Assembly: GCA_007694945.1 (NCBI GenBank)
Contig: REER01000143.1
Coordinates: 1-64,000, forward strand
Direction of reading: 5' to 3'
Origin: Paracoccaceae bacterium
Lineage (GTDB): Bacteria; Pseudomonadota; Alphaproteobacteria; Rhodobacterales; Rhodobacteraceae
Length of the DNA: 64,000 nucleotides
The notes below the pieces were generated by a model. That model worked only from the letters and a program-made list of their open reading frames with translations, made no database searches and was not told the origin of the DNA. This document shows, in pieces, positions 1 through 12,065 of the stretch (its first letter is position 1; each line of letters starts with the position of its first letter). A program made the translations under genes and the position numbers.

Positions 1-84
1 TTCTCCCGCGACGGGCGGCCGAAAGCCTCTCTCTCGACCTCCAAACCCGTCACGGACCGGGCCGGTAGCCCTCTCACTCTCTGA

Positions 85-1173
85 TCACTCGGCTGCGAGG
101 TTGCCGGGTGGGGACGGCGCGCGCGCCGCGGCCAACCCGTGCAGGGCCTCCGGGCGGATATGGGTGTAGCGGCGCAGCATCTTCCAATCCTTGTGGCCTG
201 TGACCAGTGAGACCTGTTCGATAGCGAATCCGGCCTCAAACAGGCGGCTTGTGCCTTCGTGGCGCAGATCGTGAAAATGCAGGTCCTTCACACCGACATC
301 CTTGCAGGCCCGCCGGAATGCGGTTCCGACTGATCTCGAATTATAGGGAAAGATCCGTCCCTTTACGTGCCCCAGATCCTTGACCTGAGCCGTGACAAGC
401 GCCCACGCGTCGAACCCGGTGGCGGCGAAGAGCGGGATCCTCTGGTCGTTTCCTGTCTTGTTGCGCGGGTCTTTCCGGTCCCGGATCAGGAGCATGCGGC
501 GATCAATATCGAGATCGGTCCATTCGACGCGGCAGATCTCGTCGAGCCGCATCGCGGTAGCCACCGCGAACTTGACGATCCGCGTCATCGGCAGGGTCAG
601 GCGTTCGTTGTCATCGAAGCAGCGGAAGAGGCGGTTCAACTCGTCCGTGCCGGGGCGGCGATCCCGCTCTGTGCCCTTGCCGATCAAGCCGAGCCGCTTG
701 AGCGCGACACGCGCCAGATCGACAGGCTCGGGTGAGATGTCGAGCCCGTGCACGGCTGCCGCATGGGTGATGATCATCTTGATCACGCCGATATCGATCC
801 CGAGGGTCACCGGACCTGCGCCTTGCTCTGCGCGCATCTTGCCGTAGTCGATCAGCTTTTGCCGATCCAGGTGCCCAATCCGTTCCTTGCCCAGATCGCG
901 CTTGAGCGTCGTGAGCGTGGCGGCCTTGCTGCGACGCGGCGGTTTGCCTACCTCGCACATATCGATTATGTGGATATCGATGAGGTCGCCGAAGGTGGCG
1001 AGGCGAGAGACGGACGACTTGTTCGGCGCCAGTCCCTGATCCACCCGGGTCTCCGCCTGGCGGGCCCAGCGATGGGCGTCGTCGCGACGGAGAAAGGTCT
1101 CGCTCGCGTAGCGGCCCTTTCGTCTGATCTGGACCCGGTAGGCACCGGAGGGGAGCTTGGTGATAGAGGCCAT
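85..1173 (-). CDS. Tyrosine-type site-specific recombinase/integrase, probably dusA-associated
   Basis: ORF 85..1281; the likely start is the internal Met (MASITKLPSGAYRVQIRRKG). The catalytic pattern is readable: R in ATAMRLDEI, HDLRHEGTSRLFEAG, TGHKDWKMLRRYTHI. Confidence 0.93.
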   Translation of the reverse strand: MASITKLPSGAYRVQIRRKGRYASETFLRRDDAHRWARQAETRVDQGLAPNKSSVSRLATFGDLIDIHIIDMCEVGKPPRRSKAATLTTLKRDLGKERIGHLDRQKLIDYGKMRAEQGAGPVTLGIDIGVIKMIITHAAAVHGLDISPEPVDLARVALKRLGLIGKGTERDRRPGTDELNRLFRCFDDNERLTLPMTRIVKFAVATAMRLDEICRVEWTDLDIDRRMLLIRDRKDPRNKTGNDQRIPLFAATGFDAWALVTAQVKDLGHVKGRIFPYNSRSVGTAFRRACKDVGVKDLHFHDLRHEGTSRLFEAGFAIEQVSLVTGHKDWKMLRRYTHIRPEALHGLAAARAPSPPGNLAAE

Positions 1174-1286
1174 TTTCGTGTGCGCTGTGTGTGCAATGAG
1201 TCGTCGTAGAGGGGCAAATTCGGGGATATTGGGGCGTATTCCAGCGTAGCAGCATCCGCCGCCAACAGTTTGAAGATACACAAAAA

Positions 1287-2285
1287 ATGCAAATAAATCA
1301 ACATGCTAGATTATCCTGCGCGCCGATGATGGACTGGACCGACCGGCACTGTCGGTATTTCCACCGCCAGCTTACGCGCCACACGACACTCTATACCGAA
1401 ATGGTTACGGCCCCTGCGCTGGTGCGCGGGGGCGCGCTGCATCTGCTGGAGCATCATCCGGATGAACACCCGCTCGTGCTGCAACTCGGCGGCTCGGAGC
1501 CCGAGGAACTTGCGCAGGCGGCGCGGATCGGCTGGGAGGCAGGGTATCGCGAGATCAACCTCAATTGCGGCTGTCCCTCGGATCGGGTGCAGTCAGGCTG
1601 TTTCGGCGCAGTGCTGATGGAGCAGCCTGACCATGTCGCTGATATCTGCCGTGCCATGATCGCCGCCAGCCCAGCCGAGATCACGGTCAAATGCCGCATC
1701 GGGGTGGATGATCAGGACCCCGAAGAGGTGCTGCCCGGGTTCCTAGCGATGCTGTCCGATGCCGGCATTGGCCATGTCATCATTCATGCGCGCAAAGCCT
1801 GGCTTGCGGGACTTTCGCCCAAGGAGAACCGCGAGATTCCGCCGCTCGACCATGATCTGGTCCTGCGCATGAAGCGTGACTTTCCGGCGCTCCGGATCAC
1901 GCTCAATGGCGGCATCACTTCGCTCGCTGAGGTGCGGCACTGGCTGAATCTGGGGCTGGATGGCGTGATGCTGGGGCGCGCGGCCTATCAGCGCCCAGGG
2001 GATCTGCTGCTGCATTCCGATGACGAGATTTTTGGTGACGCGCACGCAACTGACCGCCTCGCTGCCATTGAAGCGATGCGCCCCTATATCGCACAAGAAC
2101 TGCAGCGGGGCACGCGGCTGACTGCGATCACGCGGCATATGCTGGGCCTCTTCGCTGGGCGACCCGGTGCGCGTCACTGGCGACGCGTGCTGTCGGAGCA
2201 GGCACACCGCCCCGGCGCGGGGCTCGAGGTTCTCGACATGGCGCTGGAGACCATGGCGGAGGCCAGCGCGGCTGTGGCCTCATGA
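1287..2285 (+). CDS. dusA: tRNA-dihydrouridine synthase A
   Basis: Translation contains LSCAPMMDWTDRHCRYFHR, EINLNCGCPSDRVQSGCFGAVLM, TVKCRIGVDD, all DusA hallmarks. Confidence 0.96.
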   Translation: MQINQHARLSCAPMMDWTDRHCRYFHRQLTRHTTLYTEMVTAPALVRGGALHLLEHHPDEHPLVLQLGGSEPEELAQAARIGWEAGYREINLNCGCPSDRVQSGCFGAVLMEQPDHVADICRAMIAASPAEITVKCRIGVDDQDPEEVLPGFLAMLSDAGIGHVIIHARKAWLAGLSPKENREIPPLDHDLVLRMKRDFPALRITLNGGITSLAEVRHWLNLGLDGVMLGRAAYQRPGDLLLHSDDEIFGDAHATDRLAAIEAMRPYIAQELQRGTRLTAITRHMLGLFAGRPGARHWRRVLSEQAHRPGAGLEVLDMALETMAEASAAVAS

Positions 2286-10897: not shown

Positions 10898-11133
10898 GCC
10901 GAAAAGGGCTCGGTGCCTTCGGGCGTGCCGTCCTCGGACAGGCGGATCGCCTCGATCCGCATCTGGGCGGTGTTCAGCCTTGCCTCGCAATGCTTTTTCA
11001 GCAGGTCGCCGCGTTCATAAAGCGCGATCGACTCATCAAGCGGCACATCGCCGCGCTCTAGCCGGGTGACAATCTCCTCAAGCCCGCGCAGCGCCTCCTC
11101 GAAGCTCATCTCCTCGACGGGTTTCTCGCTCAT
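10894..11133 (-). CDS. xseB: Exodeoxyribonuclease VII small subunit
   Basis: 79 aa; [37 protein letters not shown]; overlaps the ispA start by 4 nt. Confidence 0.95.
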
Positions 11134-12065
11134 GCGCCCTTCTCCATCAGCACCCGGATATGCGCCCTGACCGATGCCGACAGCGCGTCGAGGTCATAGC
11201 CGCCTTCCAGACAGGATACTACCCGCCCCGCGCTGTGGCGCGCGGCAATATCGCAGAGTTCCCCGGTAACCCAGGCGAAATCCTCCTCCACGAGCGCAAG
11301 CTCGGCCAGCGGGTCGTTGCGATGGGCATCGAAGCCTGCCGAGATCAGCACCAACTCGGGCGCAAAACGGTCAAGTTGCGGCAGCACCGTGTCCTCATAA
11401 ATGCGCCGGAATTTCGCGCCATCTGTGCCCGGTGCCAGCGGAACATTCATGACCTGTCCATGCGCGCCACGTTCCTCGCGGCACCCGGTGCCAGGCCAGA
11501 GAGGCATCTGGTGGCTTGAGACGAAAAAGGCGCGCTCCTCGTCCCAGAGCAGGTCCTGCGTGCCATTGCCGTGATGCACGTCGAAATCCACAACTGCAAC
11601 GCGCGAGAGGCTGTGGCGCTCCATCGCATGTCTGGCCGCGATGGCGATTGTGCCAAATAGGCAGAACCCCATCGGGGTGGCCCGCTCGGCATGGTGGCCC
11701 GGCGGGCGCATTGCAACAAAGGCATTAGCTGCTTGTCCGTCCATGACCAGATCGACCGCGTGACAGGCCCCGCCCGCTGCCCTGAGTGCAGCATCGAACG
11801 AGCCATTGGAGACATGCGTGTCGGCGTCGAGCTGGTAGATCCCTGCGGCCGGGATCGCCATGCGAATACGGTCGATATAGTCCTGCGGGTGGCAGAGCAG
11901 AAGCTGTGCCTCTTCGGCGCGCGGGGCATCATGGTGCTGGATATCGCTGAACTCGGGTGCGCGCAAGGCCGCCTCGATCGCCTCAATCCGGGCGACCTGT
12001 TCAGGGTGGCCGGGCGGCGTTTGGTGGCGATGTGCATCAGCGTGGGTGAGATAGGCAGTGCTCAT
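11130..12065 (-). CDS. Histone deacetylase family protein
   Basis: [58 protein letters not shown]. Confidence 0.93.

Follow-up and report, generated by a model that had tools for sequence, protein, structure and literature searches.

Probable right end of an integrative element inserted at the 5' end of dusA in a Paracoccaceae genome

A tyrosine recombinase gene and dusA stand head to head at the very start of the DNA analysed here, which raises the question of whether this arrangement is the border of an integrative element and where the rest of that element lies. The window (the whole stretch analysed, 64,000 nucleotides) is C29:1-64000 of a draft bin (G000; 145 contigs, 95% complete), and contig C29 itself begins at coordinate 1 of the window. 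The integrase gene (85..1173, minus strand) matched PF00589 (E = 8.5e-23) and, among the PHROG integrase families, the phrog_1 integrase (3.3e-47). Its product contains the tyrosine recombinase motifs AMRLDE, HDLRH, GHKDW and RRYTHI at 207, 301, 326 and 334, respectively. The dusA gene (1287..2285, plus strand) encodes a full-length tRNA dihydrouridine(20/20a) synthase of 332 aa, which scored 464 bits against the NCBIfam NF008774 DusA equivalog (cut-off 269). The initial annotation described an intact recombinase pointing away from dusA at a distance of 113 bp. This was accurate: the integrase is a complete ORF of 362 aa, and exactly 113 bp (1174-1286) separate its start codon from that of dusA. 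The gap is expected to carry the promoters of both genes; no sigma-70 site was found in it by consensus.

The border between element and host DNA was located by comparison with related loci. The integrase is 99% identical to that of G012, another species of the same genus, and the integrase together with the DNA up to dusA codon 11 shows 98.5-99% identity between the two genomes. In the codon-by-codon comparison with G012, the integrase had a dS of 0.05 and a low dN, whereas the dusA body had a dS of 1.7. In other Rhodobacteraceae the integrase is 79-94% identical, and against most of them dS was 0.4-0.8 for the integrase and 1.0-2.3 for dusA. In the most distant integrases compared (L077, L080, L082), integrase dS reached 1.2-1.9. 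The contrast between 0.05 and 1.7 in G012 indicates that the DNA left of about 1320-1339 moved horizontally and that the rest belongs to the host. Identity along the junction was then read in 10-base steps across 28 Rhodobacteraceae loci. It was 90-100% over 1174-1303, including the whole divergent intergenic region (1174..1286), which forms the right end of the element, and became host-like after about 1344. This pattern indicates that the first 11 codons of dusA (MQINQHARLSC; 1287..1319, plus strand) are element DNA. The same or nearly the same codons stand at attR in many hosts, and the native dusA starts recovered at attL in relatives differ from them. The 332-aa frame of dusA is intact with these element-encoded codons, and the gene is host-derived from about 1340 on. 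The attR core GCGCCGATGATGGACTGGAC (1320..1339, plus strand) lies between the two parts, and identity drops to the host-like level across it. A duplicate of 1287-1345 had been proposed as the sequence to seek at the far end. As worded, this did not stand; it applies to the core of about 20 bp at 1320-1339, with element DNA before it and host DNA after it.

A total of 84,980 genomes, one per species, were scanned, and 246 stretches were found to encode a relative of the integrase, of which the best 80 were kept. In 76 of these best 80 of 246, dusA adjoins the integrase divergently, mostly with a spacing of 113-118 bp. This indicates that the integrase-dusA arrangement is not due to chance. Three of the four loci lacking dusA (L079, L085 and L110) lie on contigs that run out at the integrase start or shortly upstream of it. 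The single exception among the best 80 is L108 (Thalassococcus profundi), where the integrase is broken and dusA is missing from the surrounding 10 kb. Integrases that are 60-69% identical occur in Mesorhizobium (64-69%), Aminobacter, Brevundimonas, Phenylobacterium and others. The window's integrase belongs to an alphaproteobacterial subfamily.

The far end of the element was sought in relatives. Across the 80 loci, the 10 kb next to the integrase contained no second core apart from a decayed copy in L061; the elements are larger. The core was also searched for in 22 genomes with up to 2 mismatches, and the reversed pattern, used as a control, matched twice over the 22 genomes combined. A second core was found beyond the integrase on the same strand at 50.7 kb in G055, 52.8 kb in G056, 64.2 kb in G057 and 51.8 kb in G062, and at the larger distances of 84.2 kb in G066, 80.5 kb in G063 and 96.4 kb in G064. 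The complete relatives delimited in this way measure 51-96 kb. In G055, G056, G057, G062 and G064, a native and different dusA start stands in frame ahead of the attL core, and when the flanks were joined virtually, dusA read open over 338-357 codons. In G066 and G063, the stretch before the attL core looks like the right end of an older element, which indicates that insertions stack. Most left ends share the signature GTGTGCA-N5-TGTGCAAC, followed by GAAATCGCC. The base 3' of ATGATGGA (1326-1333) is T at attL in six of the seven delimited relatives and C in G063; at attR it is C or T, varying with the host. These bases hint weakly at strand exchange within ATGATGGA.

Some further copies were observed in these relatives. 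G055 has a third copy of the core 41.6 kb further out (G055:C4:1277561, 1328305 and 1369937, all on one strand), and its three cores probably represent two elements stacked at one dusA. In L061, a remnant of another insertion lies at L061:12186-12553, about 2.3 kb past the attR core that belongs to the intact integrase; it comprises the decayed core and a piece of an integrase (residues 1-71, 56% identity). A second short dusA-like stretch (ATTGGACCGACACACACTGC, reading WTDTHC) lies about 110 bp inside some left ends (L212 about 112-141, L189 about 11120-11150, and the left end of L153). This stretch is perhaps the product of an old imprecise event.

The switch in conservation at the core, the horizontally moved integrase and the second cores in seven relatives bear out the earlier suggestion that this locus is the boundary of a dusA-targeting element. 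We consider it very likely that positions 1-1319 are the attR-side end of an element that was inserted early in dusA by integrase-mediated recombination, and that the element extends to the left of coordinate 1. In the proposed course of events, the attP of the element would recombine with the attB core GCNCCNATGATGGAYTGGAC early in dusA. With the insertion, the promoter and initial codons that dusA had in the host would come to lie at the distant (attL) end, and the element would supply an upstream region, a start codon and 11 codons to the dusA body. Because the start and the 11 codons are borne by the element, dusA would stay in frame, and it would presumably be expressed from the element's promoter.

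In the window's own genome the body of the element cannot be read, as contig C29 starts 84 bp beyond the integrase. These 84 bp (1..84, minus strand) are element DNA immediately 3' of the integrase. C29:1-87 is 97% identical to the G012 element, and C135:41032-41086 matches the same G012 stretch. Positions 1-55 form a repeat at the assembly break: reverse-complemented, they are the final 55 bases of C135 (C135:41032-41086; the contig ends at 41,086). A single 55-mer that ends both C29 and C135 would be the trace of an assembler run at k = 55 meeting a repeat. C135 was rejected as the continuation of the element. Its genes are mostly ordinary chromosomal ones (e.g., ATP synthase genes), and it runs into the shared 55-mer with the same orientation as C29, so the missing body lies elsewhere. 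In relatives, a leader matching the window's left end is followed by the next element gene. In related elements, a leader resembling window 1-55 stands ahead of two or more genes, among them a DUF932-like and a ParB-like one. An Rfam search of L050, L069 and the window's left end, including the leader repeat, gave no match at E up to 0.1. G000 has six PF00589 matches over the cut-off, one of them inside the window; a second, unrelated integrase lies at C135:30727-32106.

A search of G000 for left ends found C132:1-222, which is 92% identical to the left end of G003, with similarity reaching C132:342. C132 begins 7 bases inside this G003-type left end. Judging by this similarity, the start of C132 is probably the left end of the window's element. 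The element would then have been broken up by assembly, with its right end at C29:1-1339 and its left end on C132. Past the left end, C132 (C132:1-11344, L212) encodes two amidohydrolases, a 2OG-Fe(II) oxygenase and an NMT1/THI5-type ABC transporter, and these genes may be cargo of the element. Over 9.7 kb, C132 matches a G008 contig at 82% identity, and partial similarity (67-75%) occurs in G012. As a unit, the gene set was not found in the nearest relative, G004, or in the other genomes searched. The conjugative backbone of the relatives has no homology to the C132 interior, so the element of this genome could be reduced, or it could be an island of a non-conjugative kind. A pattern search of the G000 bin found no second core and only one near match, C45:22691-22706; as a candidate attL it was rejected, for it sits inside trpB. 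The host-side attL junction was not found in the draft bin.

The element in this genome is presumably still whole or mobile. A refinement of this explanation, which we regard as rather unlikely, is that the body was deleted or rearranged, so that only the integrase and the donated start of dusA persist, perhaps with a scar of the left end. It would agree with the search of the 95% complete bin, in which the DUF932-like gene, TrbE and other conjugation genes, and the conserved body DNA of the relatives were not found. Decay and scars at dusA are also frequent in the genus: in G001, G002, G018, G021 and G045 the copies are broken or partial, or a right end stands without a full integrase, and the right ends of G006, G015 and G044 have no integrase match. 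However, the integrase here is intact, with the low divergence from the G012 copy given above, and a left end survives on C132. Moreover, the 55-mer shared by the ends of C29 and C135 means that an assembly gap explains the missing body without any deletion.

Among the seven delimited elements, that of G062 (52 kb) was annotated in full. It encodes TrbL, a TrbE-type ATPase, a TrbB-type ATPase, a TraG coupling protein and a DUF3363 relaxase, and is thus a conjugative element with a trb-type secretion system. It also encodes HsdM and HsdR (type I restriction-modification) and a DUF4917 protein. Near its integrase are a ParB-like gene and a gene read as DUF932-like (no match in Pfam). The restriction-modification and DUF4917 genes lie between those for the TrbB-type ATPase and the TraG coupling protein (L145:1857-10911) and are likely defence cargo.

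A temperate prophage, instead of a conjugative element or genomic island, would be another candidate for the body to the left of the window. About half of the published dusA islands are prophages (PMC4482086), and viral contigs encode integrases that are 37-39% identical to this one, two of them with dusA alongside. We think this improbable, because none of the phage integrases (50,697 records) exceeded 60% identity, the best of those listed being about 39%, and because the gene directly past the integrase in the 99%-identical G012 copy also follows the integrase in the trb-type element of G062.

Farrugia et al. 2015 (PMC4482086) defined the dusA-associated integrases, with 21-bp att repeats, replacement of the dusA 5' end and mosaic cargo. 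The present locus shares with these dusA-specific islands a tyrosine recombinase at the dusA 5' end, an att of about 21 bp inside dusA, an island-supplied dusA 5' end, and Alphaproteobacteria among the hosts; the cargo of the published islands is highly mosaic. It differs in that the best phage-borne relatives in our searches share only 35-39% identity with the window's integrase, and in that the relative annotated in full (G062) is conjugative and not a prophage. A PrtN/RdfN-like excision factor occurs in about 64% of the published dusA islands and is not strictly defining. Two small left-end ORFs of relatives were compared with Pfam for such a factor, and neither gave a match. In Mesorhizobium, ICEs with a trb-type secretion system have been reported adjacent to dusA (PMC8627217). 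The Mesorhizobium integrases in our scan are also near dusA, and may belong to elements other than the published ones. The published ICEs have other hosts and other cargo, and the trb genes here are known from G062, not from the window's own element. In Vibrio, it was shown experimentally that insertion of IMEVchUSA3 and other dusA islands disrupts dusA, supplies a new promoter and restores the frame (PMC8409611). The restored dusA frame is alike here, as read from the sequence. These Vibrio islands are mobilised by IncC plasmids via SGI1-like genes and an RdfN excision factor; none such were seen here. Judged by the sequence criteria tested on the available DNA, the window locus is best classed as a member of the known islands with dusA-associated integrases, not as a new kind. 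Insertion of an element at the dusA start with replacement of the first codons is a known type that is common in marine and soil Alphaproteobacteria. The integrase subfamily can serve as a landmark for one end of 51-96 kb elements in Rhodobacteraceae. The 20-bp core together with the left-end signature gives a route to the other end, even in fragmented genomes. The cargo of the G000 element is outside the window and is to be sought on other contigs.

The distribution in the genus was patchy. A full-length integrase of the subfamily was present in two of 37 genomes (G000 and G012), and the others had decayed copies, different integrases linked to dusA or no trace, so the idea that the integrase-dusA arrangement might be fixed in all relatives fails. 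Broken or partial copies were found in G002, G018, G021, G023 and G045. Distant integrases (32-37% identity) occur in G040, G041 and G042, and those of G040 and G042 are about 230 bp from a dusA core. Right-end sequence that is 93-99% identical stands ahead of dusA in G001, G002, G008, G012 and G018, with a 29-bp stub in G013. Diverged right ends (71-81%) were found in G021, G044, G045, G006 and G015, and G022 was borderline. The remaining readable genomes of the genus had no trace of the right end. An integrase that is a resident chromosomal gene, always beside dusA, would account for the arrangement across Alphaproteobacteria, but is hardly credible given this patchiness, the unrelated sequence upstream of dusA in many genomes, and an integrase that is much more alike between species (by dS) than the adjoining dusA.

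We return to the insertion of a mobile element early in dusA. The patchy integrases and right ends indicate that dusA was hit repeatedly in this genus and that a donated start can outlast the integrase. It is a tentative reading, with the chances close to balanced, that several species keep the donated dusA upstream region and first codons after decay or loss of the integrase, so that in some lineages repeated insertion has given a core tRNA-modification gene a permanently new head, and that insertions stack at the same att core. The persistence of donated dusA starts past the element is the least expected part of these results. Synteny did not reveal an empty site: almost every genome of the genus has its own set of genes upstream of dusA, and the host-left flank could therefore not be predicted. 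In the closest relative, G004 (dusA 94% identical), contig C97 (L003) begins exactly inside the att core. This break could reflect occupied and empty sites coexisting in the sample.
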